Source: Pyrinomonadaceae bacterium (GTDB lineage Bacteria; Acidobacteriota; Blastocatellia; Pyrinomonadales; Pyrinomonadaceae). Taken from it: 64,000 nucleotides of DNA. Positions 5,690 through 61,281 of this stretch are shown in pieces. Below the pieces are notes generated by a model. The model had not been told where the DNA came from. It saw only the letters and a list, made by a program, of their open reading frames with translations, and did no database searches. A program made the translations under genes and the position numbers. The number at the start of each line of letters is the position of its first letter. Within the stretch, counting starts at the first letter, position 1. The stretch lies in assembly GCA_021463165.1 (NCBI GenBank), contig JAJTWY010000013.1, positions 48,910 to 112,909 on the forward strand, written 5' to 3'.

Positions 5690-6853
5690 ATGTCGGATAC
5701 TATGGGATCGTCAAATTTTTGCTCATATCCGCTTGCTTTCCTGATCGCTGTGCTGAGCACCGTCACTGTCGCGGCTCAGTCGCCATCCGTCGGCGATGAG
5801 GTTCGATACCAGTGTTTCTGCTTTGGTCAGGAATGGGTCAAAGCAACAGTCTTGAGCGTTGGCGGAGGGAACGTGCGCGTTCGCTTCGGCAATCTGGACA
5901 GTCAGGTTGTAACGCTGCCGATCAATTCGCCGAAGCTTCGGATGAGTGGCACGACGTCGGAGTTTCGTGCGGATCCGATACAACAGGCCTTCAGTGCCGA
6001 GGCCGGACGGTTTCAAAAAGCGGTCGCTGTCTTCGCGCATTTTTACGACCCGCAGTTCAACTATGGCGGGGGTTATGTACGTGCTGAAGAATGGCGACAG
6101 GCGATGACTGAACTGGCCGAGCTTGATTCGCTGTGCAAAACACGATTTCGCGGTGTCAAGAATTTCGAGGGTCCCACTTACATCAAGCTGGGAAGTATCG
6201 ACTACCGTTTTGCCACCTGGTGTGAAGTCGCCGCAAGGCGTACCCAGATCGAGCCGATAGCCCGCGCCGGGATCGCGAAGACGCTTATTAATCTCGGCTA
6301 CACGGAAGAAAATCTCAACTTTGGTTTCAACGAGCCTGACAACCCCGTTCGTTGGGAGACCCAGGAATTGATCTGGCAGCGAGAAAAATGGCGGGCCGCA
6401 AAGCTCGCCTGGCTCAAGCCGAAGTATGCCGAGTACGGTGTGGCGGTACCGGCAGACGCTACTGCGGCTGCCGAAAAGCGAGCCGATCAATTAAAGGAAC
6501 TGGTGCTGGCAGGTGCCCCAAACCGCTCATACAAGCAGCCGCCGTATCGCGACGCCGCAGCTGAAGCGGTGGTGAAGGCGGCGTTTTTGAAGGAATATCC
6601 CGGCGTTCAGGTCGTCAAGATCGGTCTCGACTATCGAACCTGGGTCCAGCGCAAGAGCCTTGACTATATCGCTAGCGACGATATCTTTCGCTACTACAAG
6701 GTCAGCTATAATTCGTACAAACGTGGCACCGCCTTGCTGAAAATTCCGGGCCGCCCGTTCTGCCAGATGCACGATTGGGTCGTTGGATTGAGCGGAAAAT
6801 CGATCGTGCCGGCCGGTGTCGGGGGAAGCGGAACGTTTATGCGGTGTGAGTAG
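5690..6853 (+). CDS. Secreted protein of unknown function
   Basis: Long ORF with N-terminal signal sequence. Confidence 0.65.
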   Translation: MSDTMGSSNFCSYPLAFLIAVLSTVTVAAQSPSVGDEVRYQCFCFGQEWVKATVLSVGGGNVRVRFGNLDSQVVTLPINSPKLRMSGTTSEFRADPIQQAFSAEAGRFQKAVAVFAHFYDPQFNYGGGYVRAEEWRQAMTELAELDSLCKTRFRGVKNFEGPTYIKLGSIDYRFATWCEVAARRTQIEPIARAGIAKTLINLGYTEENLNFGFNEPDNPVRWETQELIWQREKWRAAKLAWLKPKYAEYGVAVPADATAAAEKRADQLKELVLAGAPNRSYKQPPYRDAAAEAVVKAAFLKEYPGVQVVKIGLDYRTWVQRKSLDYIASDDIFRYYKVSYNSYKRGTALLKIPGRPFCQMHDWVVGLSGKSIVPAGVGGSGTFMRCE

Positions 6854-6942
6854 CCAACATTTTGTGGCGACGCCGGGCTGGCTCAGGTCGGCTGGTGAAT
6901 AAGATCCTTTCTAGCTAATATTGAGATAGGAGTTTTCTTATT

Positions 6943-7347
6943 ATGAAACGAGGTTTCTTCGGGTCTTTATTATCTTTTGGTTTGTTGCTGATCTGTGTTA
7001 TGGCCGCGGCGGCCCAGTCGAAATCAGTCGCCGGGGAATGGGACGGGGCATTTGAAACTCCGGGCGGAGCCCGGCCATTCAAACTCGTGCTGAAAGTAGA
7101 TGGCGAAAGGCTAACCGGCACGTCGAAACGCTCCTCGGGTGACGTGCCGATCCAGGGCACGATCAAGGGGAAGGATATTAGCTTCAGCTATACTATCAGT
7201 TACAACGGGAACGACCTGACGATGAGCTTTATCGGTAAAGTAGATGGCGAGACGATGGGCGGATCAGTGTCTTTCGGCGGCAACGCCGATGACGTATGGA
7301 CGGCAAAACGGGCACCCGCCGAAAAGCCAAAATCGGACAAACCATGA
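6943..7347 (+). CDS. Secreted protein of unknown function
   Basis: Signal peptide ending AAAAQS; AGEWDGAFETPGGARPFKLVLKVDGERLTG pattern seen in small exported proteins. Confidence 0.7.
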   Translation: MKRGFFGSLLSFGLLLICVMAAAAQSKSVAGEWDGAFETPGGARPFKLVLKVDGERLTGTSKRSSGDVPIQGTIKGKDISFSYTISYNGNDLTMSFIGKVDGETMGGSVSFGGNADDVWTAKRAPAEKPKSDKP

Positions 7348-7544
7348 CCGCGGAATTCGAGGCCCTCGCTTGCGATCCCGACCTGGAATCTTCGCGTGGG
7401 CCGGGCGGCACTCTCATCTTCGTCGATGGTGGCCAGTATTGTGTCATCGGGACGGAATTCGTAAGCACCGAAGAGAGTGACTGCTACGCATTCGGCTCGA
7501 CGAAAGAAGAGGCCCTGGCTAACTACGCTCTCAGGCGGCAATGA
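7344..7544 (+). CDS. Hypothetical protein, translationally coupled to previous gene
   Basis: ATGA overlap with preceding stop; internal ATG in ORF 7296..7544 (MTAEFEALACDPDLES...). Confidence 0.5.
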   Translation: MTAEFEALACDPDLESSRGPGGTLIFVDGGQYCVIGTEFVSTEESDCYAFGSTKEEALANYALRRQ

Positions 7545-7619
7545 GAGCCAGGTTATGGGTCGTCCTGTTGAATAACTCGCCAACCTAAAGTATCCTGATT
7601 CCACAAAAGGAGAAAAACA

Positions 7620-8507
7620 ATGGAGCGTAAGACGGCAGATCAGTATCCGCAGGAGCTGTTGGACCTTTTTCACGAATGGCAGCATGGCGACCTGGACAGG
7701 CGTTCGTTTATGAGCGGGATCGCGAAATTCGCGGTCGGCGGGCTAACGGTCGCGGCGATCTTTGAAAGCCTCAAGCCAAACTACGCTTGGGCGCAGACGG
7801 TCAACCCCGACGATAAGGACATCAGGGTCGGCTACGAGGTTGTCCAGTCACCCAACGGGAACGGAACGATCAAAGGCTATTTTGCCAGGCCCGCGAAGGG
7901 TAAGAAATTCCCCGCAGTTTTGGTCATTCACGAGAATCGCGGGCTGAATCCTTATATCGAAGATGTTGCCCGCCGGTTTGCTAAGGTGGGAATGATGGCT
8001 CTTGCTCCCGATGGATTGACCTCGGTGGGAGGCTATCCGGGCGACGAACAGAAAGCCGCCGCTGCATTTCGCACCGTCGATGGCAAGAAGATGACAGAGG
8101 ATTTTGTCGCCGCTGCGATGTGGCTGAAGAAGCATAAGGACGGAAACGGCAAACTCGGTGCTGTCGGGTTTTGCTTCGGCGGAGGTATGGTAAACCAACT
8201 CGCGGTTCGACTCGGCAAAGATCTGAATGCCGGAGTTCCGTTCTACGGCAGCCAGGCGGGCATCGCGGATGTGCCCAAGATCATGGCCCCGATGATGTTC
8301 CAATATGCCGGCAACGACCAGCGCATCAATGCAAATATCGCTGCTTACGAGGCGGCCCTCAGAGAGAATAAGAAAACCTTTGAGTCGTTCATTTACGAAG
8401 GCAAGCAGCACGGGTTTCACAACGACACGACGCCGCGCTATGATGCGGAAGCTGCCAAATTGGCCTGGGAGCGGACGCTCGCCCATTTCAAAAAGTATCT
8501 GAAATAG
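7620..8507 (+). CDS. Dienelactone hydrolase family protein with Tat/Sec-like N-terminus
   Basis: VLVIHENRGLNPYIEDVARR, GAVGFCFGGGMVNQLA nucleophile motif, KQHGFHND. Confidence 0.9.
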   Translation: MERKTADQYPQELLDLFHEWQHGDLDRRSFMSGIAKFAVGGLTVAAIFESLKPNYAWAQTVNPDDKDIRVGYEVVQSPNGNGTIKGYFARPAKGKKFPAVLVIHENRGLNPYIEDVARRFAKVGMMALAPDGLTSVGGYPGDEQKAAAAFRTVDGKKMTEDFVAAAMWLKKHKDGNGKLGAVGFCFGGGMVNQLAVRLGKDLNAGVPFYGSQAGIADVPKIMAPMMFQYAGNDQRINANIAAYEAALRENKKTFESFIYEGKQHGFHNDTTPRYDAEAAKLAWERTLAHFKKYLK

Positions 8508-8564
8508 ACCTTCGGACGATGCGGCGTTTTGCCACTATCGCCGTGTTTGCTATCTTGTTAACTG

Positions 8565-8759
8565 ATGAGTAATTCAACTAGAATGTCAAAGACCGTTGGC
8601 CGTTTGGCCTCGCTGGTGTGCGCGGCCGGCGTCATATCGTTTTTCATTGGCTTGTTCGGGGGCCCGCGTTCGATGGTCATCATCGGAGCGGCCCTTATGA
8701 GCGCCTCGCTCATCGGCTTTTTTATCGAAGAGCAGGGAAATCGGAAAGCCCGCGCATAG
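8565..8759 (+). CDS. Small membrane protein
   Basis: 64 aa ORF with two hydrophobic segments. Confidence 0.45.
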   Translation: MSNSTRMSKTVGRLASLVCAAGVISFFIGLFGGPRSMVIIGAALMSASLIGFFIEEQGNRKARA

Positions 8760-8829
8760 CTTCATCCCATCCTCTCCATAAAGCCCATCCCCTCATGTAT
8801 GAAGGGGCCAGATAAAGGAATATTTTTCT

Positions 8830-9300
8830 ATGAAAGATAAAATGTCTTTGCGGGCGAGTGTGCGCTCCGCATTGTTGATCATTGGTTTTTTCGTGGCGGT
8901 TGCGTTGATCCGCGACTGGACACCGACGACGGCCCAGGTCACGCCGACCAAGATCGCGGTCATTGATACCGAAGCGGTACTGCTTCGTTCGAAGATCGGA
9001 AAAGCGATGACCGTCGAACTCGAAAAGGTGCAGCAGGACTCACAACGTCAGTTCAAAGCGGAGACCGACCCCGCAAAACGCGAACAGATCAAGGTCGCCG
9101 CACAAAAGAAATACAACGACACTCGAGATCGCCTGCTCGCTCAGGCCGACACCAAAATGACGCCTATCATCAACTCCGTCGGCAGGGAGATGAAAGCCGC
9201 CGCGATCTTTCGCAAATTCGAATCAGGCCTGATCTACGCCGACGACTCACTCGATATAACCAACACCGTTATCCAACGCATCGACGCCGCCACGCCGTAA
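8830..9300 (+). CDS. OmpH/Skp-like periplasmic protein
   Basis: KIAVIDTEAVL...GLIYADDSLDITNTVIQRID ending typical of OmpH family. Confidence 0.75.
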   Translation: MKDKMSLRASVRSALLIIGFFVAVALIRDWTPTTAQVTPTKIAVIDTEAVLLRSKIGKAMTVELEKVQQDSQRQFKAETDPAKREQIKVAAQKKYNDTRDRLLAQADTKMTPIINSVGREMKAAAIFRKFESGLIYADDSLDITNTVIQRIDAATP

Positions 9301-9323
9301 TAATCGATAAACGGATTTCAAAG

Positions 9324-9467
9324 GAATTGCCACTAGCTTCAGCTAGGGGGCCGAGTGAGGACTACATTGATCCGGGCTTTAGCCAAAAATTTGGCGCTGA
9401 CCCCGAGTTCGGCTAAAGCCGATGATAATATTGAATCCTCACCACGCTCTGAAGAGCGTGGCAATTC
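9324..9467. repeat. Nested palindromic (REP-like) intergenic element
   Basis: Outer inverted repeats GAATTGCCAC (9324-9333)/GTGGCAATTC (9458-9467); inner GGCTTTAGCC (9375-9384)/GGCTAAAGCC (9411-9420); hairpin CCACGCTCT-GA-AGAGCGTGG (9442-9461). Confidence 0.8.
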
Positions 9468-9514
9468 ATCAGGAGCGAGGGTAATTCAGATGACCTTTGA
9501 ATGCTCAACCTGTA

Positions 9515-9580
9515 ATGAATAAAACGACGGGCTGTCGCATCTCGGTTGCGATTTTCCTGACCCTTATTTTGGTGTGCTAG
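9515..9580 (+). pseudogene. Orphan signal-peptide ORF (MNKTTGCRISVAIFLTLILVC), probably a truncated exported protein
   Basis: 21-codon ORF with lysine, hydrophobic core and terminal Cys that stops at the junction with truncated vapC. Confidence 0.4.
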
Positions 9581-9723
9581 AAGCCGGCGGGACGCTCCAT
9601 CTCTGTTACAACACCGATCGCAAGAACCGAATTCGACGATATTTGGTTTAGAAATTCGGCTGCTGTGCTAACACCGCGAGCTTCATCGATCAGAATATCA
9701 GTGTCAATAATGGTGAGGGACAT
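9577..9723 (-). pseudogene. Truncated VapC-like PIN domain toxin (N-terminal 48 aa only)
   Basis: Minus-strand translation MSLTIIDTDILIDEARGVSTAAEFLNQISSNSVLAIGVVTEMERPAGF*; start abuts antitoxin stop; PIN domain normally continues for more than 80 further residues. Confidence 0.75.
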
Positions 9724-9948
9724 CTAGTTAGCCCAATGCTTTTCGCGGACAGAGCGTACCCAGGCCGTGCTATCAGTGATATCGTCGCGATCGAGCCAAA
9801 TGCCAAAGAAAGAATCGTCTTCGAAATTATTTTGAGCAGCGTTTGGAGGTGAGTAAAGCGCTCGCAGACGCGCGATCAGGTCTTGAATCTCGCGTTGGGC
9901 TCCGGTCGGCAGGGCGGCGATCTCTTTTAGGATCTCTTCGCTGGTCAT
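9724..9948 (-). CDS. VapB-like antitoxin
   Basis: MTSEEILKEIAALPTGAQREIQDLIARLR... followed directly by truncated PIN toxin. Confidence 0.65.
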   Translation of the reverse strand: MTSEEILKEIAALPTGAQREIQDLIARLRALYSPPNAAQNNFEDDSFFGIWLDRDDITDSTAWVRSVREKHWAN

Positions 9949-9998
9949 AATATCTCCTTGTCTCATTCTCACTTTTCCTTAAAATATGTCAACGGAAA

Positions 9999-10024
9999 AA
10001 GCCCCGGCTATGTGCCGAGGCTTT
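9999..10024. terminator. Intrinsic terminator-like hairpin (copy A)
   Basis: AAGCCCCGGCtatgtGCCGAGGCTT followed by T-rich, similar to hairpin at 10874-10902. Confidence 0.6.
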
Positions 10025-10084
10025 CTCAGTGAACTAGAGATCGTAATATCAGAGGTGCCCTTACTTACGTGCGGGCTACTGACA

Positions 10085-10186
10085 CTACATACCCATGCCG
10101 CCGGGCATGCCGCCCATGTGGTCGCCGCCCTTTTCGTCGGGGGCGTCGGCGATCAAACGCTTCGGTGGTGAGCATCATGCCGGCGC
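10085..10186 (-). pseudogene. C-terminal remnant of a second groEL
   Basis: Minus strand reads [10 protein letters not shown]-(+1 frameshift)[22 protein letters not shown]; shares the 20-bp block gcttcggtggtgagcatcat with the 3' end of the intact groEL. Confidence 0.88.
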
Positions 10187-20338: not shown

Positions 20339-20681
20339 CCTCGATGCGCACGATATCATCCTCGCCAAAGTAGTCGCCCGTTTGAGTCTCGATAAAAACC
20401 AGATCCTCCGAATCGGATGGATTCTCGACCCGATGGGCATCTTCGCGGCCGATATCGATGGCATTTCCAGAATTTACTAGAATTTCAACACCGTTTAATG
20501 TTACTTTAGCTATGCCCTGTACGACGTACCAGTGCTCGGAGCGTCGTGAGTGCCGCTGATAGCTCAGCCGCTTGCCGGGCAGCACTTCGATCCTCTTAAC
20601 TTTGTAATTTTCACCTTCGTCCAGGACGGTAAATGTACCCCACGGACGGCGGTCGAACGCGGGCGACGAGTTCTGTTCCAT
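20322..20681 (-). CDS. Cupin, mannose-6-phosphate isomerase type II-like
   Basis: RPWGTFTVLDEGENYKVKRIEVLPGKRLSYQRHSRRSEHWYVVQGIAKVTLNG. Confidence 0.9.
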   Translation of the reverse strand: MEQNSSPAFDRRPWGTFTVLDEGENYKVKRIEVLPGKRLSYQRHSRRSEHWYVVQGIAKVTLNGVEILVNSGNAIDIGREDAHRVENPSDSEDLVFIETQTGDYFGEDDIVRIEDDFGR

Positions 20682-20683
20682 AT

Positions 20684-22444
20684 ATGAACAGTTTAGGCGA
20701 AAAGGCCGAATCAGCCAATCTAAAGCCGCTTCAGAAGATCCAAACGCTGATCATCGGGCGGCTGGTCGTCATTTTTCTTTTGCTTGTGACCAGCTGGATC
20801 TGGTTCAGCGGGACGCTGCGGCTTTCGGTCGAGAATTTTCCGCAAGGACTCTTCCTTGTCTTTACCATTTCGGTAGGCCTTACGATCGTCTATTTCTTCT
20901 TGCTGCGAATGAGCAAGACGCTCGCCTGGCAGATCCGGACGCAGTTCTTGCTGGACGCTCTGCTGATAACGTGGCTCGTTTGGCGGACAGGCGACATCTC
21001 TTCGCCATACATTACGCTTTACATCGTTTTAATCAGCGTTACGAGCTTTTTCCTGCGGCCGCTTCCGACGTTGCTGATGTCTGCCGTGTGCGCCGGACTC
21101 TTTATCTCGCTCGCGGTTCTCTCGCTGGGTGCTGTTATCGAATCGACGGGACAGGTGCCGGAGATGCAGAAAGCCGTACAGATCGTAAGCTTTCATGTGG
21201 TGGCAATGCTGGTCGTCGGGCTGCTTGCATCCAGGCTGTCGGACCGGCATCGTTCGGTAGATGAACTCGAAGAGACTGCGAAAAATCTTGCAACGCTGCG
21301 GGCTCTTCATGAGCGGATCGTCGAATCTATCCGCTCCGGGCTGATCACGACGGATCTCGATGGCAAGATCTTCACGTTCAATTCCGCCGCGACCGAGATC
21401 ACCGGCTATAGGGTGGATCAGGTGCAGGGCGCCTCGATATATGATCTTTTCGGCGATATCCGCGAGCCGATCGACCTCTCGCTTGCGGCTGCCGGTGACG
21501 GTGACCAACTGCCCCGGTTCGAAACGGACCTGATGACGCCCGACGGATTTGCCGTCCGCATCGGTTACAGCGTTTCGCTGCTATTCTCGGAGAAAAACGA
21601 AGCGAGCGGGCTTATCGTCACATTTCAGGACCTGACGGAGATCCGTTCGATGGAGGAGAGTGTGCGGCGGAAGGACCGTCTTGCCGCGGTTGGCCGTGTG
21701 GCTGCGGGACTTGCACATGAGATCCGAAATCCGCTCGGAGCAATGCGTGGCGCCATCCAGGTGCTTGAATCAAATACGCCGCCGCAATCGATGCAGTCGA
21801 GCTTGATGGAGATCATCCTTAAGGAATCCGACCGGCTCAACAGCATCATTACAAACTTCCTCGGATACGCGCGACCGGCCGCCGGTGAATTTTTTGAGAC
21901 AAATGTTGCCGAGGCGATCGATGATACGATCACGCTTTTGAAACATAGTCCGGACGTCGGGGAAAGCCACCGTTTGCTGTTCCGCGGGGATCGCGAGGCG
22001 GCGAATATACTGGCTGACCCGACGCAGTTGAAGCAGATATTCTGGAACCTCGCAAGGAATGCACTGCAGGCAATGCCGGAGGGCGGTGAGCTGACGATCG
22101 GGCTTGAGCCGATCCCGAACAACCGTATTCGGATCACCTTCGAAGATACCGGCCGCGGAATGGCTCCCGAACAGGTCGAACAGCTCTTTGAACCATTCTC
22201 GAATTCGACATCGGGAGGCACCGGCCTCGGTCTCTCGATCGTTTATCAGATAGTCAAGGACCACAACGGCGTTATAAATGTGCGAAGTCAGGAAGGCAAA
22301 GGCACAGTAATTACCGTCGAACTGCCTGTCAACAACCGGCGTGGACAGGCTGAAGTACCGAAAGACGTTCCGGAACGGGCCGAGGTATCAAAGCTGGAGG
22401 GCCTGCTTAGGGTGGATTCTCGCGGCGAGAACACTTTATCTTGA
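20684..22444 (+). CDS. pilS: PilS/NtrB-type sensor histidine kinase with PAS domain
   Basis: Six-TM-like N-terminus, PAS, GLAHEIRNPLGAMRGAIQVLE H-box, GRGMAPEQVEQLFEPF, adjacent to pilR/pilA. Confidence 0.85.
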   Translation: MNSLGEKAESANLKPLQKIQTLIIGRLVVIFLLLVTSWIWFSGTLRLSVENFPQGLFLVFTISVGLTIVYFFLLRMSKTLAWQIRTQFLLDALLITWLVWRTGDISSPYITLYIVLISVTSFFLRPLPTLLMSAVCAGLFISLAVLSLGAVIESTGQVPEMQKAVQIVSFHVVAMLVVGLLASRLSDRHRSVDELEETAKNLATLRALHERIVESIRSGLITTDLDGKIFTFNSAATEITGYRVDQVQGASIYDLFGDIREPIDLSLAAAGDGDQLPRFETDLMTPDGFAVRIGYSVSLLFSEKNEASGLIVTFQDLTEIRSMEESVRRKDRLAAVGRVAAGLAHEIRNPLGAMRGAIQVLESNTPPQSMQSSLMEIILKESDRLNSIITNFLGYARPAAGEFFETNVAEAIDDTITLLKHSPDVGESHRLLFRGDREAANILADPTQLKQIFWNLARNALQAMPEGGELTIGLEPIPNNRIRITFEDTGRGMAPEQVEQLFEPFSNSTSGGTGLGLSIVYQIVKDHNGVINVRSQEGKGTVITVELPVNNRRGQAEVPKDVPERAEVSKLEGLLRVDSRGENTLS

Positions 22445-22514
22445 ATCGGGGCGTTGAAGTCTGTAAAAATGGTGACGACGGGCTTCCGACAGATCAGCCG
22501 CACAACTCGCAAAA

Positions 22515-23912
22515 ATGGCAAGAATACTAATTGTTGATGACGAGCAAAGCTACCGGCAGCTGCTCACCTTGGTTTTCGAGGAGCAGGGGAATACGGTTCG
22601 TACGGCGATGAACGGCCGGCAGGCGCTTGACCAACTCGCGGCCGAGCCGGTTGACATTGTGATCTCAGACGTAAAAATGCCGGACATGGACGGCATCGAA
22701 CTGCTACGCGCGGTTCGCGAGATCGAACCCGATCTCGGAGTGGTTCTAATGACCGCGTTTGCCTCTGTCGAGACGGCCCGCGAGGCTTTCAAACTTGGGG
22801 CCGACGACTTTATTCAAAAACCTTTCGATGTCGAAGAACTCAAGCTCATCGTTCGCAAGACCCTCGAAAAGCAGGATCTGATCAAGGAGAACCAGGCCTT
22901 TCGCCGAGCTCAGAGAGAACGCGGCAGTGTGAAGAACATCGTCGGATCGTCGGCGAAGATGAACGCGATCTTCCAGATGATCGAAACCGTTGCCGAGGTC
23001 CAGTCCACGGTTCTCGTAACGGGCGAAAGCGGTACGGGAAAGGAATTGGTGGCACGCGCGATCCATGATCGAGGGGCGAGGGCCGAAAAACCATTTATAT
23101 CGATAAATTGTGGAGCTTTCACAGAGACCCTCCTTGAATCGGAGCTTTTTGGGTATGTAAAAGGAGCTTTCACCGGGGCGAATACCAACCGGAAGGGCTT
23201 ATTCGAGGCCGCGCATGGCGGAACGATCTTCCTGGACGAGATCGGCGAGATGTCGTCGGCGATGCAGGTAAAGCTCCTCCGCGTGCTGCAGGAGCGGCGA
23301 GTCAGGCCTGTTGGCGGGCACGAGGAACTTCCGGTCGACGCTCGTGTCATCGCCGCCACGAATCGGGACTTGAAGAAGATGACCGAGGAGAATACATTCC
23401 GCGAGGATCTCTACTATCGCATCTCGGTCATACCTATCCACCTGCCGCCGCTGAGGGAACGCGTTGACGATATCGCGGCCCTCATTGAACATTTTGTTAA
23501 GAAATTCTGCGACCAGGCCGGTAAACATCTCACGATCTCGCCGAAGACGACGCAGATTCTGGAGAAATATGCCTGGCATGGGAATGTGCGCGAACTTGAG
23601 CACACTATAGAACGAGCGGTCGCTCTGGAACGATCGAGTGAGATACAGCCGGAACAACTGCCCGACCACATCACGAACTACAATCCCCAGCGTATCAGCG
23701 CGGAATTCGAGCTTCCCGAGGACGGGATCAACCTCGTCAGTCATCTCGAGAATCTTGAGAAGACCTATGTCGTCGAGGCACTGCGGCAGACCGGGGGAAA
23801 TCAGACGCGGGCCGCCGATCTGCTTAAGATGCCGGTCCGCTCACTGCGGCACCTTCTTGACAAGCATTCGATACGCAGTTTGTCGGCTCAGATGCGTGGT
23901 TCTGACGCCTGA
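22515..23912 (+). CDS. pilR: Sigma54-dependent response regulator, PilR type
   Basis: Receiver domain, VTGESGTGKELVARAIH, ESELFGYVKGAFTGA (GAFTGA), Fis-type HTH. Confidence 0.92.
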   Translation: MARILIVDDEQSYRQLLTLVFEEQGNTVRTAMNGRQALDQLAAEPVDIVISDVKMPDMDGIELLRAVREIEPDLGVVLMTAFASVETAREAFKLGADDFIQKPFDVEELKLIVRKTLEKQDLIKENQAFRRAQRERGSVKNIVGSSAKMNAIFQMIETVAEVQSTVLVTGESGTGKELVARAIHDRGARAEKPFISINCGAFTETLLESELFGYVKGAFTGANTNRKGLFEAAHGGTIFLDEIGEMSSAMQVKLLRVLQERRVRPVGGHEELPVDARVIAATNRDLKKMTEENTFREDLYYRISVIPIHLPPLRERVDDIAALIEHFVKKFCDQAGKHLTISPKTTQILEKYAWHGNVRELEHTIERAVALERSSEIQPEQLPDHITNYNPQRISAEFELPEDGINLVSHLENLEKTYVVEALRQTGGNQTRAADLLKMPVRSLRHLLDKHSIRSLSAQMRGSDA

Positions 23913-23944
23913 TCTGCTAGATTCCCCATCTCACTACAAGAACT

Positions 23945-23991
23945 CGTTGTTAAAAAGGCCGGGGCCCGTTGGAAAATCCCTTGCCAACTAA
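23945..23991 (+). pseudogene. 3' remnant of a pilA-like gene
   Basis: Reads LLKRPGPVGKSLAN*, compare VLKAGPVGTAL...SALAN* of intact PilA; 15-bp identity CCCTTGCCAACTAAC at the 3' end; hairpin terminator follows at 24021-24050. Confidence 0.6.
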
Positions 23992-24093
23992 CGATCACCC
24001 GCGTTCAACGCCGCTTCGGAGAGCGTTCCGGCAACGGAGCGCTCTTTCTTTGTTGTGGGGGCATGTTTCTGGACGCGGGGTTCATGGGCGGTG

Positions 24094-24112
24094 ATTGACA
24101 CTTTTTGTCAAT
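24094..24112. promoter_or_regulatory. Perfect inverted repeat ATTGACA-CTTTT-TGTCAAT, candidate activator (PilR) site
   Basis: About 140 bp upstream of sigma54-like promoter; contains TGTC half-sites. Confidence 0.5.
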
Positions 24113-24253
24113 CGGGAATTGCCAAATCCTGTTAAATCAGCCTCGGATCGCCAAACATGAAGCTCCGAACCAGACTGCAGCAAGGAGGTTGATGGGTTAT
24201 AAACATAAGAAAACAAAGGGGATAGACGTCGCGTTTCCCGGCCTGTCCAAGTC

Positions 24254-24269
24254 TGGCACACGTCTTGTA
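24254..24269 (+). promoter_or_regulatory. Sigma54 (-24/-12) promoter of pilA
   Basis: TGGCAC-N5-TTGTA with GG-N10-GT spacing upstream of pilA. Confidence 0.65.
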
Positions 24270-24334
24270 TCTTAATTCGCGGCCCTGGAAAGGTTCACCT
24301 TGATTTCAAAAACTTAGGAGATTGTGACTTACAA

Positions 24335-24811
24335 ATGAAGAATCAGAAAGGTTTCTCGCTTATCGAATTGTTGATCGTCGTTGTTATCATCGGCATCATC
24401 GCTGCTATCGCTATCCCGAATCTGCTTGCGGCTCGCCGCTCGGCAAATGAAGGTTCGGCCGTTTCGGCTCTCCGCACCCTCCACGGTGCTCAGATGACCT
24501 ATGCTTCGACCTACGGCGGAGCGAACTATGCCCCGTCCCTGACGGCACTGGGAACACCGGGTCTGATCGACTCGACGCTTGCCACCGGTACAAAGAGCGG
24601 TTACACGTTTACCGCAACCAACGTTGACTTCAGCGCGACCGCACCGGCGACGTTCCACGTTGGAGCGACCCCGACATCGGCATCCGGCGTTACCGCAACC
24701 GGCACACGCAACTTCTGTATTGAGACGGATGGTGTGCTGAAGGCCGGACCGGTTGGAACAGCCCTTTCAACGGCTGCTGCCTGTACGGCTGCCTCTGCCC
24801 TTGCCAACTAA
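24335..24811 (+). CDS. pilA: Type IV pilin
   Basis: KGFSLIELLIVVVIIGIIAAIAIPNLLAARRSANE prepilin motif. Confidence 0.96.
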   Translation: MKNQKGFSLIELLIVVVIIGIIAAIAIPNLLAARRSANEGSAVSALRTLHGAQMTYASTYGGANYAPSLTALGTPGLIDSTLATGTKSGYTFTATNVDFSATAPATFHVGATPTSASGVTATGTRNFCIETDGVLKAGPVGTALSTAAACTAASALAN

Positions 24812-33309: not shown

Positions 33310-35586
33310 TTAGAAGACGGGCAATGTTTCGCAGGCCGGCGATCCCTGCGGTTCGTGCTCTTCGGCGGCATTCTCTTCCGGGAGCCAGCTTCGCCTTTCG
33401 TAGAGGAGCCTTTCCATATTCTCTTTGGTCTGAGGGCGGGCCAGTAAGTAGCCCTGGCCGTAGTCGCACCCGAGATTCTGAAGCAGTGAAAGCTGCGAAT
33501 CCGTCTCGATTCCTTCCGCGATCACTTTTTTCTTTAGGTTCTTTGCAAGCGAGATGATCGTTTGCAGGATCTCTGAATTCTCTCCCTTCTCGCCGACGCT
33601 GTATACGAAAGAACGGTCGATCTTCAAGGTGTCGAACGGCAGGCGATGCAGATAGCTCAGGCTGGAGTAACCCGTCCCAAAATCGTCGATGCTTAGTTGA
33701 ATACCGAGCAGCTTGAGTCGCTTGAGCATAGCGATCGAGTGTTCGGCGTTCTCCATCGCGGCGCTTTCGGTGATCTCGAGCTTGAGGCACGCCGGATCGA
33801 TCTTCGACCTTTCGATCGCCTGTTCCACGTCCGTGATCAAGTCGTCGTTTGAAAGGTGTTTGCCCGAGATATTTACGCTGACGATCAGGTTTCGAAAGGC
33901 CGGATCGATCTTTTGCCAGTAGGCAAGCTGCCTCGTCGTTTCCTCGAGTATCCAAACAGTGATCGGAACGATCAGGCCGGACTCCTCCGCGATCGGGATG
34001 AACTTGTTCGGCGGGATATTCCCGATCTCGCTGTGATGCCACCGCAGCAGGGCCTCGAATCCCATGAGGCTCCCGTCCTGAATGTCGATGAGCGGCTGGT
34101 AACTCATCGCCAGTTCTTTGCGGGTCAAGGCCTGACGAAGGTCGTTCTCATACCGGATGCGCTCGAGAAAACGCTCGCGGAGTTCCTTTGTGAAGATCGC
34201 CACTCCGCTGTTCCACTCCTTTGCGTAGTGCATCGCAATGTCTGCGTCGCGAAGCACTTCTTCGGGCGACTCGTATTCCGTATCGCATGGTGCGATCCCG
34301 ATGTTGACACCGATCGACACCTGATTGCCGCTGAGCGAGAAAGGATGCGAAATATTGTCGAGCAGCCTGCGGGCGACCTTCTGCGCCTTGCCGACCGAGC
34401 TGATCCCGGTGAGCAGGACGGCAAACTCGTCCCCACCAATACGGGCGACCATATCCGACGAATTCAGCATACGAACAAATCGCTTGGCAGCGATCATCAG
34501 CACCTTGTCGCCCAGAACGTGTCCGAGACTGTCGTTGATATGCTTGAACTTGCGAAGGTCCAGGAACAGGACGAAGAACGTTTTTCGCGGATCCTGTTTG
34601 TACTCGTCGATCATCACCCGCAACCTGTCACCGAAGTGTTTACGGTTCGGGAGATTCGTCAGCGAATCGTACAGGGCGGCGTGCTGCAGGTCGGTCTCGC
34701 TCTTTCTCAGCGCAGCATTCGCCTTTTCTTCCTTTTCCAGCGTCGCCGCCAGCTCATCCGCGTACTTTTCGGCTTCGCGTCGCCGCTCACGTTCGATCTC
34801 GGCCTTTGACCTTTCGGCGGTCTCCGCCGTGAGGATGGCGTCATTCACTTCGTTGATCGACTGCCGGTAGCTAAGATAGGCGATCAGCAACGCGAGGAAT
34901 GCGATGACGCCCGTGATCCCGTCGCCGTACTGTATGACCTTGAAGAGCAGTGCCGCGAGGCCCGCTCCGACGATCTGCGTCATCGAGCTCGAAAAACAAT
35001 CCTTTCGCCACGTCTCCCAAAACCCGGCGCCTCCGCGGATCCATACGAATGTCGCCGCGAGCAGCGAGGAGACGGCGAACTGGACCAGCGCAAGGCTTCC
35101 CAGTGTCGCTATCAGGTGCTGAGTCGTGCCGGGATCGGGCGTGATGAACGGCGCGCGCGGTACGTTCAGCCAAACAAAATACATTGCCGACACGGAGAGA
35201 GCATTGATCGAGACGTTTGTCAGGATCATCATCCGGCCGAAGACATACCCGCGGGAACGCAAATACAGGCAGTTGGCGAGCGATTCGAGAGCAGCGACCA
35301 CGACCGCTGCCGGCCCGCCGTAGATCAGGAAGGTAAGGAAAACTGCGGCGTCCGAGAAGCTGATCGCAAAGCGGGAACGGGGCAGCGTGAGGCTCAGGCG
35401 TGGAGCCGCCAGCGTTGCGAACACCAGGATCAGAAGGAAGCCCCAACTAAATGTGGTCCCGGGCAGATCAGATAGGGCAAGGCCAAAACCCACGGCCGCA
35501 GCTAGGCTGACCGTGCCTTTAACAAGATAGGAAACGGTTTCTCTGTTCAGGTGGGAGGGCTGTGCGAACAGGTCTGATCTTTTCAC
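33310..35586 (-). CDS. Membrane GGDEF/EAL domain protein
   Basis: N-terminal multi-TM region, RIGGDEFAVLL (GGDEF), MGFEALLRWHH (EAL-like), DDFGTGYSSLSYLHRLPFDTLKIDRSFV. Confidence 0.95.
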   Translation of the reverse strand: MKRSDLFAQPSHLNRETVSYLVKGTVSLAAAVGFGLALSDLPGTTFSWGFLLILVFATLAAPRLSLTLPRSRFAISFSDAAVFLTFLIYGGPAAVVVAALESLANCLYLRSRGYVFGRMMILTNVSINALSVSAMYFVWLNVPRAPFITPDPGTTQHLIATLGSLALVQFAVSSLLAATFVWIRGGAGFWETWRKDCFSSSMTQIVGAGLAALLFKVIQYGDGITGVIAFLALLIAYLSYRQSINEVNDAILTAETAERSKAEIERERRREAEKYADELAATLEKEEKANAALRKSETDLQHAALYDSLTNLPNRKHFGDRLRVMIDEYKQDPRKTFFVLFLDLRKFKHINDSLGHVLGDKVLMIAAKRFVRMLNSSDMVARIGGDEFAVLLTGISSVGKAQKVARRLLDNISHPFSLSGNQVSIGVNIGIAPCDTEYESPEEVLRDADIAMHYAKEWNSGVAIFTKELRERFLERIRYENDLRQALTRKELAMSYQPLIDIQDGSLMGFEALLRWHHSEIGNIPPNKFIPIAEESGLIVPITVWILEETTRQLAYWQKIDPAFRNLIVSVNISGKHLSNDDLITDVEQAIERSKIDPACLKLEITESAAMENAEHSIAMLKRLKLLGIQLSIDDFGTGYSSLSYLHRLPFDTLKIDRSFVYSVGEKGENSEILQTIISLAKNLKKKVIAEGIETDSQLSLLQNLGCDYGQGYLLARPQTKENMERLLYERRSWLPEENAAEEHEPQGSPACETLPVF

Positions 35587-35894
35587 GGCAAGTAGAACCC
35601 TTCTCGGTGTAAACCGAGTTATAAAAAGTTTAACACGTTTAACGCCGAAAAAGCCAGAAAAAATATAGGGTTACGCGGATAACTGTATATTCATTATACA
35701 CCTTGATTTTGTATAAAAAGTATCCATTCATCTAAGTAACTCATTTAGTTCAACTTACAAGATATTCACCGCTGAAGTGTTACCTGGATATACAGTTTTC
35801 CTCAAGATCCAGATCGTCGTCAGTTTCCGCAAGCGGTATCTGTAAATGTTGCAAACACAGGGGATAAAAAGTTGTTTATTGCTGTGGCACGCTT

Positions 35895-35910
35895 TGGCAC
35901 GCGCCTTGAA
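35895..35910 (+). promoter_or_regulatory. Sigma54-like promoter upstream of small repeat protein
   Basis: TGGCAC-GCGCC-TTGAA with GG-N10-GA spacing; 10-bp-phased duplicate TGGCACGC at 35885 and 35895. Confidence 0.5.
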
Positions 35911-35979
35911 ATAGGGAAGTGCAGGAAAGGGCAACAAGCAGGGTTTCAAAAACAAAACTGAACTTTTAGGAGAAGAAAA

Positions 35980-36285
35980 ATGAAAAACACGATCAAAGCA
36001 ATCACACTCGCAGCAATTCTGTTGGTCAGCAGCACATTCACGTTCGCAGCGGAGCGTACACGGGTTAGCGAGCCCAAGGGCAAGGGCTGCGACGCCACTC
36101 AGTCGGAAGGGATCATTGTTTTCGGTGCGAAGGATGGGATCATCGTTTTCGGTATCACCGGGATCATAGTCTTCGGAGCCGCAGACGGTATCATCGTATT
36201 CGGTCGCGGCCAGCAGCCGGCAGCATGCAGCGACAGGACCGGCATCCTCGTCAGCGACAGGACCGGGATCCTCGTCAGCGACTAA
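35980..36285 (+). CDS. Small secreted repeat protein (GIIVFG x4, TGILVSD x2)
   Basis: SD AGGAG, signal peptide MKNTIKAITLAAILLVSSTFTFAA, repeats at codons 44-75 and 87-101, Cys37 and Cys83 flank the first array; terminator-like hairpin downstream. Confidence 0.85.
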   Translation: MKNTIKAITLAAILLVSSTFTFAAERTRVSEPKGKGCDATQSEGIIVFGAKDGIIVFGITGIIVFGAADGIIVFGRGQQPAACSDRTGILVSDRTGILVSD

Positions 36286-36572
36286 CCCGGACACGTCATC
36301 CAGTTTCCACACCGGGGGGAACAAGAGCGGCTTCGTCGAGCGATCGGCGGGCCGCTTTTCCTTTTGTTCAAAAAAGTCGCGAGGCCGCTGACCCGGTCGG
36401 ATAGCTGCGGATTTCCGGCCAATGGTACGAGCAAGAATTCCCTTGACCGGAAATCCTGTCTATGAGACAATGTTGCACAGCATGGGTGTAAGACAAAGTA
36501 GCGATCTTTTTAAAAATTTTCGAGAAAACGGCCAGACATTCGCTCTAAGCCTTTGATATGACTAGACTTGTG

Positions 36573-38715: not shown

Positions 38716-38953
38716 ATGGAGCTCCTATATCGGATCGGTTCACACGCATTCTATGTCAATTCGATATTAGGGGTCAATGAAAAACAGCTATTGCGGCTCA
38801 TCTTTATATGCGGCACGGGAAGGCTGGGAACGCCGGAGGTCTGAAAAGCGGATGTAACATTAAATTTCCCAAAATCCCGGGAATAAAGTAATGTGTAAAA
38901 TGGAGCAATGTAGCTGCACATAGAATTAGATTGCAGTTGGACAGGTGAGAATA

Positions 38954-40114
38954 ATGGATTTTGCTACAAAAGAGGTCTTTAAGCGCTGGGCGAGCATCTT
39001 GGTCGGTAGGCCAATTTCCCCAGTTTTCCTGAATATTTTGGTCACGAGCGTCTGTGATATGCGGTGTACGCACTGCTTTTTTACGGACGAACTTGACGAC
39101 CGGCCGCGCAAGAAATTGCAGATGAAAACCGACGAGATCGCCCGGATTTCGGAAACTTTGGGTGGAAATCTCGGTGTCTTGGTCCTCGCCGGCGGCGAGC
39201 CGTTCACCAGAAAAGATCTGCCTGAGATAGTTCGAGCCTTTTACGAGAACAACAAGCTTGACAGCGTTTATCTAATGTCGAACGGCCAGATCCATCCCCG
39301 GATCTTTCCAGATGTTGCCCGCATCATGGACGAATGCCCGAACCTTAATGTCTCGGTCGCGCTCGGAATCGATGGATTGAAGGATGCTCACGAGAAGATC
39401 CGCCGTAAAGAGGGAAGCTGGGATAAGGCGATCCACACGGCTCGAACGCTCCAGCAAATGAAGCGCGAGCAATACCCTAAGCTAGACATTCAGACCTGCA
39501 CGTGCGTGATGCATTCTAACGAAGAGACGATCTTTGATTGGTACGATTTCCTCAAGCATGACCTGAAGCCGGACAAGGTAAATATTAACTATATTAGACC
39601 TCCGTCTGCCGACCCCATCGAACTGGAGTTTGACCATCGTCGCTATCAGCAGCTCTCGAACATGATCCTTGAGGATACGAAAAGCGCGGCCCTGAAGAAC
39701 AACTACGGTGGCGACAGCGGTTTTTTCAAGGCAGCGGTCGACATCTATATGCACGATGTGATCGCCAAAACAAAAGAAGAAGAGAAGGCTCAGCTCAAAT
39801 GCTACGCTGGTTCCGCCGGAGCAGTGATCTACGACAACGGTGCCCTTTCGTCGTGTGAGAATAAGGCTGATGTGCTGAATCTCCGCGATTACGACTGGAA
39901 TTTCCAGGCCGCCTGGAGGACCGATCTGATGGAGGAGCGTCGCAAAGAGGCCGGTGCCGGGTGTTATTGTACCCATGAATCGAACTGCTTCTATCCGTCG
40001 CTGCCCTTCAATGCCGGCCATTTGGTGAATATCAAAAAACTCGAAAAGCAGATGAAAAAGGCCGCGAAATCGGCAGGATTTGCCGCAGCCCGAGAGGTGG
40101 CGTTGAAGGCGTAA
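38954..40114 (+). CDS. Radical SAM protein with SPASM-like C-terminal cysteines
   Basis: CDMRCTHCFF (CxxxCxxC); VLAGGEPFTRKDL; C-terminal CYAGSAGAVIYDNGALSSC...CYCTHESNC. Confidence 0.93.
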   Translation: MDFATKEVFKRWASILVGRPISPVFLNILVTSVCDMRCTHCFFTDELDDRPRKKLQMKTDEIARISETLGGNLGVLVLAGGEPFTRKDLPEIVRAFYENNKLDSVYLMSNGQIHPRIFPDVARIMDECPNLNVSVALGIDGLKDAHEKIRRKEGSWDKAIHTARTLQQMKREQYPKLDIQTCTCVMHSNEETIFDWYDFLKHDLKPDKVNINYIRPPSADPIELEFDHRRYQQLSNMILEDTKSAALKNNYGGDSGFFKAAVDIYMHDVIAKTKEEEKAQLKCYAGSAGAVIYDNGALSSCENKADVLNLRDYDWNFQAAWRTDLMEERRKEAGAGCYCTHESNCFYPSLPFNAGHLVNIKKLEKQMKKAAKSAGFAAAREVALKA

Positions 40115-40122
40115 GCTGGATC

Positions 40123-41301
40123 ATGCATCAAAACACCCCCAAAGTCCTTATCATTTCGTCCGACACCGGCGGCGGGCATCGCTCTGCCGCACAGGCTATC
40201 TCGGAAGGCTTTGAACGGGTTTGGAAGAGCGATTCGTCATTTGTCAAGATCATCAAGGGCGTTGAGGAATCGCATCATATCACCGATAAACTTGTAAATC
40301 TCTACAACTGGACCCTTAAGAACAAGCAGCACTGGATGAAATATCTCTATTGGGCTGTTAATAAGATCAGGCCCGAGACTAGAGAATTCTTTATGAAGCG
40401 GTGCATCGGATTCTGTAGGGACCAGTTTGAAAAGTGGTGTCCGCATGTGGTCGTGAGTGTCCACCCTTTGACGCAGCATATATTTGCGCGGATCCTTCGC
40501 GAACTTAATCTGACAGATCAGGTTCCGCTTGTAACTGTTGTCACCGACCCATGTTATGGCTTTTGGAAAGGATGGGCCTGTGACGATGTTTCGCTCTACT
40601 TGGTCGCGAATGAGGATGCAAAGAGCCAATTGGTCGACTATGGTGTCTCACCTGACAAGATAAAGATTTCGGGGATGCCGGTGAATCCGAAGTTTCGTGA
40701 GGTGGACGAAATAGATGCTCAGAACGCACGTCGCGTTTATGGCCTGGATCCGGATAAATTCACCGTCTTTGTTAATGCCGGTTGGATCGGTGGTGGGAAT
40801 ATACCTCAGATCTTCCGTGAACTGGTGCGGGGCGAACTCGACGTTCAGGCGATCTTTCTGGCCGGCAAGAACGAGGAGCTTCGTATTGAAGCCGAACGGC
40901 TTGCAAAAAACGCCAAGTTCCCGGTAAAAGTTATCGGATATTCAGACGAGATCGAAAAGCTCATGCAGTCAGCAAATGTGATGGTGTCGAAGCTGGGCGG
41001 CCTGACAACTTTCGAGGCTCTTGCCTGCCGTCTGCCGATAATCGCAGATGCGACAACACCGCCGATGCCGCAGGAAGCCGGAACTGTGCAGCTCCTAGAG
41101 AAGAAAGGGGCGGGAATTTTGTTAAAGAATTCGGCCGACATTGTGCCCACGATCAAAGGCCTTCTCATCGACCGCGACCGCTACTCACGAATGAAAGAGG
41201 CGACTGTCGGGATGACCATGCCGAATTCGACCGAGCAGATCATTCGCGAGATAAACGCCATTCTTCCTCATCCGTTTACTACGGCAAAGGCCGCGGCTTG
41301 A
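40123..41301 (+). CDS. MGDG synthase/processive diacylglycerol glycosyltransferase-like protein
   Basis: VLIISSDTGGGHRSAAQAISEGF, MVSKLGGLTTFEALACRLPIIADAT. Confidence 0.9.
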   Translation: MHQNTPKVLIISSDTGGGHRSAAQAISEGFERVWKSDSSFVKIIKGVEESHHITDKLVNLYNWTLKNKQHWMKYLYWAVNKIRPETREFFMKRCIGFCRDQFEKWCPHVVVSVHPLTQHIFARILRELNLTDQVPLVTVVTDPCYGFWKGWACDDVSLYLVANEDAKSQLVDYGVSPDKIKISGMPVNPKFREVDEIDAQNARRVYGLDPDKFTVFVNAGWIGGGNIPQIFRELVRGELDVQAIFLAGKNEELRIEAERLAKNAKFPVKVIGYSDEIEKLMQSANVMVSKLGGLTTFEALACRLPIIADATTPPMPQEAGTVQLLEKKGAGILLKNSADIVPTIKGLLIDRDRYSRMKEATVGMTMPNSTEQIIREINAILPHPFTTAKAAA

Positions 41302-41430
41302 ATCTCGTGATCGTATGGGACAACCGATATACCACGAGCGGCGTGGCGTTTCTCGCTTCCGCGCTTGTTAGTTTTCGACTATTTCATTAACCTTTTTATT
41401 TGTATACTTTAGCGACGGAGAAGGAATCCA

Positions 41431-42180
41431 TTGAGCCTTTTACTTGAAGGAAAGCGTGCATTTGTTTCTGGGGGGACGCGTGGGATCGGTGCGGCGATCT
41501 GCGAGGTTTTCGCACGCGAAGGAGCCGATGTTGCGTTCAATTATCATTCGAGCGACGGTCTAGCTGCCGAGGTTTGTGCAAAGATCGAGGCATACGGACG
41601 CCGTGCCCTCAGCTACAAGGTCTCGGTTACCGATCGATACGGAATGAAGCATATAGCCCGCGAGATCAAAGAGGCTTGGGGCCCCGTCAATGTTCTGGTA
41701 AACAACGCAGCCGTGAACAAAGGAGACAATTTCGCGACAACTACAGATAAAAGCTGGGATTGGGTCGTCGAGACGAACGTCGGCAGCCTTTTTGCCGTTA
41801 CAAAGCCCTTCTACAAACAGATGATCCGCGAGAAGGTCGGGGCTATCCTGAATATCACGTCGGTCGGGGCAATTCGGAGTTTGCCAACTTCGGTTCATTA
41901 CGCCACCTCGAAAGCTGCAATGATTGGATTTACAAAATGCTTGTCGCGCGAGGCGGCGAATTTCGGCATTTCCGTCAACGCGATTGCAGCAGGGATCTTC
42001 GATACCGATCTGGGACAGACCTTGCCTGACCGCTTGCTGGCTATCCACGACCACTGGGTAGCGAAGGGGCGTCAGGGCCAGCCGCACGAACTCGCCGAGA
42101 TCGCCGCCTTTATGACTTCGGACCGAAATAGTTTCATGAGCGGCGAGGTCGTAATCGTTGATGGCGGCGCTATAACATAA
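41431..42180 (+). CDS. SDR family oxidoreductase (FabG-like), TTG start
   Basis: FVSGGTRGIGAAICEVF; YATSKAAMIGFTK; no ATG near the SD, TTG used. Confidence 0.9.
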   Translation: MSLLLEGKRAFVSGGTRGIGAAICEVFAREGADVAFNYHSSDGLAAEVCAKIEAYGRRALSYKVSVTDRYGMKHIAREIKEAWGPVNVLVNNAAVNKGDNFATTTDKSWDWVVETNVGSLFAVTKPFYKQMIREKVGAILNITSVGAIRSLPTSVHYATSKAAMIGFTKCLSREAANFGISVNAIAAGIFDTDLGQTLPDRLLAIHDHWVAKGRQGQPHELAEIAAFMTSDRNSFMSGEVVIVDGGAIT

Positions 42181-60079: not shown

Positions 60080-60382
60080 CTATTTATTAGCCGGTTTGTT
60101 AGCAGCGTTTGCGTTAGCAGCCGGGGCAGCGTTAGCCGGTTTCGCAGCATTAGAAACAGCGTTAGCAGCGGTCGACGCAGCATTCGAAGCAGCATTAGCA
60201 GCATTCGCGATCGCGTTCGCCGCGGTCTGAGCTGCGTTTGCAGCATTAGCCATTGCGTTGGCAGCGGTGTTGGCCGCGTTCGCAGCCTTGTTAGCTGCGG
60301 TGTTCGTGTTAGCAGCTTCGCCGCACGCCATTCCCAGAGCGCCCATTGCGAGAACAGCTGATAGGGCAATTACTTTTTTCAT
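60080..60382 (-). CDS. Small Ala/Asn-rich lipoprotein (paralogue A)
   Basis: Lipobox ALGMAC; repetitive AANAANTAANAMANAANAAQTAAN. Confidence 0.7.
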   Translation of the reverse strand: MKKVIALSAVLAMGALGMACGEAANTNTAANKAANAANTAANAMANAANAAQTAANAIANAANAASNAASTAANAVSNAAKPANAAPAANANAANKPANK

Positions 60383-60610
60383 AACTTAAAGATTCTCCTG
60401 TCTTCTTCAAAGATTAGATCTAATTCAATTTAATTTTAACTTAATCGAAGACCGTGTTAACCCCGGCCTTGTCCCGTGTCTTTCTCAAATTTTCAGGAAC
60501 ATTGCACAATATAGTGTCCGTTGGCGATTAAGTCAACCCCCAAAACACAAAAATATTCAAATTTCTATTCAAAAACTGCTAATTCCTGAGTAACCGCATT
60601 CTATCAAACA

Positions 60611-60642
60611 GAAAAGCACCTCGCAAAACGCGAAGTGCTTTC
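60611..60642 (-). terminator. Intrinsic terminator downstream of paralogue B
   Basis: AAAGCACTTCGCG-tttt-GCGAGGTGCTTTT on minus strand. Confidence 0.75.
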
Positions 60643-60668
60643 CCAATCAACAACAGTATATATAGTGA

Positions 60669-60956
60669 CTACGGCTTCTTTGTAGCGTTAGCAGCCGGAG
60701 CATTAGCCGCAGGCGCATTAGCCGCGGGCTTATTAGCAGCTGGAGCATTTGCAGCCGGGGCGTTCGAAGCAGGTGCGTTCGATGCCGGTGCAGTAGCAGG
60801 CGTGCTAACGGTTTCCGGGGTTGAAGCCGGAACGGTGACATTTGCAGGCTTATTAGCAGTTGCGTTGTTTGCAGGTGCGTTGTTGGCCGCGCCGCCGCAA
60901 GCCATGCCGAGGGCGCTCAGCCCGAGAACAGTTGAAAGTACAATTACTTTTGTCAT
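60669..60956 (-). CDS. Small Ala/Pro/Asn-rich lipoprotein (paralogue B)
   Basis: Same signal peptide and lipobox (ALGMACGGAAN), APAANAPAANKPAANAPAAN repeats. Confidence 0.7.
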   Translation of the reverse strand: MTKVIVLSTVLGLSALGMACGGAANNAPANNATANKPANVTVPASTPETVSTPATAPASNAPASNAPAANAPAANKPAANAPAANAPAANATKKP

Positions 60957-61281
60957 GTTATTAAAGACTCCTAATCTTTACTCAAAGAATTAAAAAACCT
61001 GTTTCCAGGCACCGGCCGATCGTGACACAGCCGTTTTGCTCAGAGCTCTTTCTTTCTCGAAGCAAACGATAATATAGAAATCGAAACGGCTCATGTCAAC
61101 TAAAAAATGTAAAAATAGCAACTTTTTTTCATTTATTTTTTTGCGCGTTTTGCATTAGCAACCCCGGGGCGAGCCAAAGCGGCAAAGAATATTTTTCCTT
61201 GACTCATTTTTTACCGCCAGAGTATCCTTTTAGATAGGGCGATCGCCCTCCGTTTCCCGCTTGATCCCACATCCTCTTACG

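Follow-up and report, generated by a model that had tools for sequence, protein, structure and literature searches.

The repeat gene and its surroundings

The window, by which we mean the whole 64,000-nucleotide stretch of DNA under analysis, carries a small repeat gene that stands divergent to a large GGDEF/EAL gene. The features of this locus are collected in Table 1. Re-reading, translation, and Tandem Repeats Finder placed the open reading frame, the repeats, the two cysteines, and the 24-bp duplication where the original prediction had put them, and the promoter-like element and the divergent gene likewise lie in their predicted places.

Table 1. Features of the repeat locus, in window coordinates
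Feature	Position	Strand	Basis or conservation
Divergent GGDEF/EAL membrane protein of 758 aa; its gene and the repeat gene share the regulatory intergenic region	33310–35586	−	Pfam, 7.6e-41 (GGDEF) and 4.7e-78 (EAL)
Palindromic upstream site 1, TGTATATTCATTATACA (TGKATA-N5-TATMCA)	35684–35700	.	Conserved in homologous loci
Palindromic upstream site 2, TGTATAAAAAGTATCCA, −185 from the −24 element	35710–35726	.	Within a few bp of −185 in most of the 46 loci
Third, degenerate palindrome copy, TGTTACCTGGATATACA, about −117 from −24	35778–35794	.	Between −115 and −120 in most of the 46 loci
Second upstream element, gTAAAc..TTG..........GTTA, −54 from −24	35841–35866	.	At −53 to −56 in 46 loci
Sigma54-type −24/−12 promoter, TGGCAC-N5-TTGAA, TGGCACGCGCCTTGAA	35895–35910	+	Kept in 46/46 homologues
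Shine–Dalgarno sequence, AGGAG	35968–35972	+	TAGGAGAAG or similar before nearly all homologues
Repeat protein gene, 101 aa	35980–36285	+	ORF list and translation; homologues
Predicted Sec signal peptide, residues about 1–24	35980–36051	+	By eye; n/h/c layout kept in alignment
Cys37	36088–36090	+	Near-invariant alignment column
Inner array, four GIIVFG units	36109–36204 (36109–36126, 36136–36153, 36160–36177, 36187–36204)	+	
Cys83	36226–36228	+	Near-invariant alignment column
Outer array, two GILVSD units	36241–36282 (36241–36258, 36265–36282)	+	Within the 24-bp tandem DNA duplication
Probable intrinsic terminator, GC hairpin then TTTT	36323–36359	+	Fold about −30 kcal/mol

In the translated product, the GIIVFG units occupy residues 44–49, 53–58, 61–66, and 70–75, and the GILVSD units occupy residues 88–93 and 96–101. 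The signal peptide was called by eye from the N terminus. Tandem Repeats Finder reports a duplication with a period of 24 and a match of 96% at 36228–36282. This recent tandem duplication of DNA accounts only for the last two units, the GILVSD pair, and not for the four GIIVFG copies, because the codons of the latter differ from copy to copy.

The hairpin downstream of the gene is absent from the output of a strict terminator consensus scan; a terminator-like hairpin with a T-run lies 3′ of the gene in 39 of the 46 homologues described below. Elsewhere in the window (60083–60959), two small lipoprotein-like ORFs are rich in A-N repeats (ANTAANAANAA...; APAANAPAAN...).

A conserved family in Pyrinomonadaceae

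We recovered 46 complete homologues, all from Pyrinomonadaceae (Acidobacteriota), with full coding sequences taken from 53 fetched loci. Within the same genus, the profile matches 39 of 41 genomes at E ≤ 1 and 36 of 41 at E ≤ 0.01, and the gene is usually single-copy. A further 17 genomes of the family were matched by the profile search at E ≤ 0.01, and the weakest of these include non-members (G106, G115, and G145). The repeat gene occurs in 11 of the 53 genera of the class, all within one family, and a phylum-wide profile search of 396 genomes, with at most 13 candidates scored in each, gave no match outside Pyrinomonadaceae. The named relatives are MAGs assigned to Pyrinomonadaceae, Acidobacteria group 4, or Blastocatellia. 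Two diverged members were located by their position beside the GGDEF/EAL orthologue: G110 has MKSKFLAILITVFALASSVLADGGIVTLDGGIVTLDGGIVTLVLALTGGIVT, and G036 has a degenerate form, GALILSR.

The homologues are 76–109 amino acids long (mean 95) and follow a common plan: a predicted signal peptide, one or more repeats, a cysteine, two to four repeats, a second cysteine, and one or more terminal repeats. This R-C-R-C-R order is found in 36 of the 46 proteins, and the cysteine pair that the original prediction had noted around the first array recurs in 45. The unit comprises six residues, G-[IVLM]-[ILVM]-[VILM]-x-x, mostly in 4–7 copies that form the bulk of the mature part, and in most proteins the C terminus is itself a repeat or lies no more than two residues past one. 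The linkers usually measure 0–3 residues, most often two (FT being commonest), and have no constant sequence (FT, T, LV, RD, or none). As judged by eye, an n/h/c-like layout of the N terminus is conserved in the alignment, and the shared plan with its Sec-type N terminus supports the predicted small exported repeat protein.

Exceptions to this plan are found in two genomes. At the G008 locus (L088), the signal region is missing; two tandem ORFs on the reverse strand (MNNTQTSDIRGIIVSDFSRGIIVSDFAKGMLVSD...), lacking both signal peptide and cysteines, lie just 3′ of the sigma54 site at about 1621 and retain the same promoter and palindromes. The G110 member is a short form without cysteines. Therefore, the export signal and the disulfide are not strictly universal.

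The window protein matched no Pfam family at E ≤ 10, including Curlin_rpt and the chaplin domain. NCBIfam yielded no family match and a profile search of the PDB no hit, so that the protein indeed falls outside these curated families, as initially supposed. A scan of IMG/VR returned no viral relative, and a limited literature search turned up nothing published on GIIV repeats from Acidobacteria.

A chance ORF or assembly artefact might be suspected in sequence of such low complexity, the repeats of which also yield a long antisense ORF (35755–36324, minus strand). This reading is refuted by the 46 homologues from independent assemblies, by the preserved promoter, Shine–Dalgarno sequence, terminator, and synteny, and by a pN/pS of about 0.23 between units. 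The repeat ORF is a real, conserved, monocistronic gene of a family confined to Pyrinomonadaceae; its homologues keep the repeat frame and the ORF is maintained, so that these two grounds on which the original prediction could have been refuted fall away.

Units are uniform within proteins and diverge between species

When the units of one protein are compared with each other, the overall pS is 0.56 and the overall pN 0.13. In ten proteins pN between units is zero, yet the codons differ. Unit position 5 is identical in 69% of within-protein pairs but in only 17% of pairs between proteins, and position 6 in 66% compared with 30%. The comparison points to selection that keeps the units of one protein identical at the amino acid level.

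The type of unit varies by species (GIIVAG, GIIVFG, GIIIDN, GVIVNL, and others), even among near sisters. Mapped onto the tree of the neighboring GGDEF/EAL protein, the dominant unit exists in 24 types, and its distribution over 36 species takes at least 25 changes to explain. The proteins of the sisters G018 and G003 differ by five amino acids; a single kind of substitution, I to L, recurs in three units and accounts for three of these differences. Across the six species of the surrounding clade, the signal region shows a pN of 0 and a pS of 0.13, and the repeats show a pN of 0.15. Units may grow alike through gene conversion in short tracts, with synonymous drift afterwards. Such concerted change of all repeats in each species is unusual.

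A sigma54-type promoter with nearly private upstream sites

The sigma54-like promoter of the original prediction recurs, as TGG[CT]A[CT]-N5-TTG[AT], before all 46 genes. It lies 60–91 bp from the ATG in 45 of them and 122 bp away in the exception, L101, the start codon of which may be wrong. By simple arithmetic, TGG[CT]A[CT]-N5-TTG is expected by chance about 0.004 times per 260-bp upstream region, and the more specific TGGCAYN5TTGWAWTA occurs a single time in the window's own genome. Many loci show a small hairpin after the start site. The −12 box reads TTGW (TTG[AT]) and not the textbook TTGC.

A PilS–PilR–PilA cluster is located at 20633–24811 of the window, with a sigma54-type promoter of pilA, TGGCACACGTCTTGTA, at 24254. 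The pilA genes beside pilS–pilR in the window, in G023, and in G027 all carry a TTGT variant of the −12 box (TGGCAC-N5-TTGT), which suggests a lineage-specific −12 preference. The rpoN gene is present in the window's own genome (E = 2.1e-57) and in 153 of 163 genomes of the class. Because the PilR-regulated pilA promoters share this kind of −24/−12 variant and rpoN is present, control of the repeat gene by sigma54 is well supported. A limited literature search found no paper on sigma54 in Pyrinomonadaceae and no described regulon for the lineage.

Further upstream, the palindrome near −185 is often accompanied by additional copies. The relaxed palindrome TGNNTA-N5-TANNCR has at least one match in 45 of the 46 loci, compared with a mean of 0.5 in shuffled sequences, and the gTAAAc/GTTA element reaches 12.2 bits compared with 6.9 in shuffled sequences. 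With Rfam, no riboswitch was found in the intergenic region, the one weak match scoring far below its gathering score.

The exact palindrome, TGKATA-N5-TATMCA, occurs 13 times in ten genomes, and 11 of these sites are at the repeat-gene locus. The other two share one orthologous intergenic region (L142 of G061, 995–2957, and L153 of G000, 57–2044), and therefore the palindrome regulon probably has at least one more member. This region is flanked by a weakly sigma70-like protein (85% identical) and a weakly anti-sigma-like protein. Since the palindromes are found at the repeat gene but not upstream of pilA, the two genes likely respond to different activators.

Enhancer-binding proteins shared by three genomes that have the repeat gene, but absent from two that lack it, were considered as candidate activators. 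They were rejected because their neighbors (ssb, helicase/methylase-like, and similar cargo genes) make them look like mobile-element genes. Short enhancer-binding proteins without a receiver domain are found on apparent integrative mobile elements, several per genome (L212 and L213 on small contigs of G000, L214–L217, and L211).

Gene neighborhood

The GGDEF/EAL gene adjoins the repeat gene in 39 of the 46 loci and, with one exception, is divergent from it; in the exception, L093, the repeat gene is inverted. A cysteine desulfurase gene is present in 36 loci and in most of these faces the repeat gene from the opposite flank, in convergent orientation. However, the locus of G007 (L068) keeps the repeat gene, its promoter, and the palindromes without an adjacent GGDEF/EAL gene, and in G016 the GGDEF/EAL orthologue is retained but lacks a neighboring repeat gene. 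The divergent gene is dispensable at the repeat locus. The original prediction of possible c-di-GMP-linked control is therefore less well supported: such coupling is suggested by the synteny, yet each gene persists without the other.

No curli- or Fap-type chaperone, usher, or secretion gene was found among the conserved clusters of the surrounding 8 kb or so, and no receptor, transporter, immunity gene, or dedicated exporter was seen at the repeat locus. These absences bear on a membrane-active β-peptide with an antimicrobial or contact-killing role. A small, hydrophobic, glycine-rich, species-variable product with predicted export would suit that role, but a single-copy, monocistronic gene with neither an adjoining immunity gene nor a dedicated exporter makes it very unlikely.

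Downstream in the window, radical SAM, glycosyltransferase, and SDR genes (38945–42180) form a set that is kept together in about 20 loci and possibly serves lipid or glycan synthesis; it has no operon link to the repeat gene. The radical SAM gene (38945–40114) lies 2.7 kb downstream of the repeat gene, which raises the question of whether the repeat protein is a RiPP precursor and the substrate of a radical SAM enzyme. In G106 (L103, about 7919–10149), a signal-less ORF ending in KGILVGDNKGILVGDSKGIIIGD does immediately precede the gene of a TIGR03975 RiPP radical SAM methyltransferase (616 bits, with a cut-off of 282). EmrAB-like exporter genes lie beyond it, and this locus may encode a RiPP with the same core motif. 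However, TIGR03975 occurs in only 19 of 163 genomes of the class and is absent from the window's own genome; G106 is the only TIGR03975 genome among the repeat-gene matches, and this by way of the weak RiPP-associated ORF itself. The TIGR03975 loci elsewhere show no GIIV repeats. The radical SAM gene of the window, for its part, is cut off from the repeat gene by the oppositely oriented cysteine desulfurase gene and travels with the glycosyltransferase and SDR genes. Genome co-occurrence excludes maturation by the TIGR03975 enzyme for the main family, and a RiPP precursor of any kind is hardly credible here.

A candidate cross-β matrix protein

We favor, with a probability of about one half, an exported, disulfide-clamped protein that self-assembles into a cross-β matrix. 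Homotypic assembly is preferred because of the predicted export, the cysteine pair around the inner array, and the apparent selection for identical units. Every unit is a β-aggregation hot spot on the AGGRESCAN scale and is hydrophobic on either face of its strand.

The protein would be exported, whereupon a disulfide would clamp the inner array. Its strands would then stack against identical ones, within a molecule and between neighbors, giving a cross-β, amyloid-like assembly on or outside the cell. An enhancer-binding protein would turn the gene on upon a surface or envelope cue, a switch possibly tied to c-di-GMP through the divergent GGDEF/EAL enzyme. Stacking of like on like would explain how units can be identical within a protein while the set drifts between species. 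The amyloid or adhesin role put forward in the original prediction is plausible, and self-assembling secreted repeat proteins are already known as a mode of action.

Several observations speak against the cross-β matrix. AlphaFold, with only six sequences per alignment, gave no confident fold for P0001 and L117 (pLDDT 38.5 and 35.5), curli- or Fap-type accessory genes are missing beside the repeat gene, and the exceptional members depart from the plan, those of G008 lacking signal and cysteines and that of G110 lacking cysteines.

The repeats might instead fold into a soluble or surface-anchored, non-amyloid β-solenoid-like envelope protein or adhesin, in keeping with their regular alternation of strand and short turn at a period of about 8 residues. 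A protein of the same bacterial family has repeats of this period: L104 of G115 (5748–8714, minus strand) encodes a 989-aa secreted subtilase that has an SLH domain and, in its N-terminal part, about 20 DGITVTGA repeats, so that such arrays do occur within cell-surface proteins. We nevertheless regard a solenoid as unlikely, given that hydrophobic residues on both strand faces fit stacked sheets better than a solvent-exposed solenoid and that no confident fold is predicted.

Identity of the repeats would be needed equally by a multi-copy precursor of a peptide signal, and their uniformity within and divergence between species are explained as well by this reading as by cross-β stacking. Here, a Gram-negative, sigma54-controlled precursor, comparable to those of yeast α-factor or neuropeptides, would be exported by Sec and cut by a protease into copies of one short hydrophobic peptide, and the specificity of a cognate receptor would keep species “dialects” uniform. 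Polyproteins with several identical signaling peptides are established elsewhere, according to PMC5850478. The regulatory sites are nearly private to the locus, and the units of the G008 copies are separated by FSR and FAK. Still, we hold a signal precursor to be decidedly improbable. There is no constant processing site around the copies, the linkers being mostly 0–3 variable residues; the conserved cysteines, superfluous for a signal, and the order of units imply that the whole protein matters; and neither a receptor nor a transporter gene co-occurs at the locus.

SHP peptides are encoded as a single copy in a tiny precursor of Gram-positive bacteria, with the Rgg receptor gene next door. 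The streptococcal SHP pheromones of Rgg/SHP systems include DIIIIVGG and DILIIVGG (PMC3679016), short hydrophobic I/V/G-rich peptides that resemble DGIIVGG and the repeat units. This likeness is one of sequence alone and may be due to chance among I/V/G peptides. Unlike SHP, the repeat protein has mostly 4–7 copies, cysteines, and a Sec-type N terminus, and no receptor is seen at its locus.

Comparison with known surface amyloids

For the cross-β matrix, the closest analogies lie among secreted amyloids. Short chaplins carry two cysteines, as do nearly all members of the repeat family. The chaplins and rodlins of Streptomyces are, as PMC5618249 and PMC5618241 describe them, small, secreted, hydrophobic, β-rich proteins that self-assemble as cell-surface amyloid, and the repeat protein is predicted from its sequence to share the first four of these properties. 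It has no sequence relation to them (no Pfam match at E ≤ 10) and differs further in coming from a single gene of a Gram-negative host, in its array of identical six-residue units, and in its sigma54 control.

In CsgA and FapC, each repeat spans about 20 residues or more, exceeding the unit described here, and includes polar ladder residues at fixed positions; there is usually no conserved cysteine pair, and a dedicated secretion operon is present; no such operon is seen beside the repeat gene. PMC9268375 characterizes curlin CsgA and FapC as exported repeat proteins whose imperfect repeats stabilize the amyloid, and the repeat protein is likewise a predicted exported repeat protein.

The family amounts to a natural experiment in repeat evolution, in which 36 species share out some 24 hexapeptide variants, each variant uniform within its protein. 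That the units stay uniform although synonymous codons are free to vary points to selection for like-with-like contact, either through self-assembly or through a receptor. A clear set of sigma54 promoters and activator sites is now available for the Pyrinomonadaceae lineage, and the repeat protein is a candidate extracellular matrix or signaling protein for the Acidobacteriota that inhabit soil and activated sludge, most of which are uncultured.
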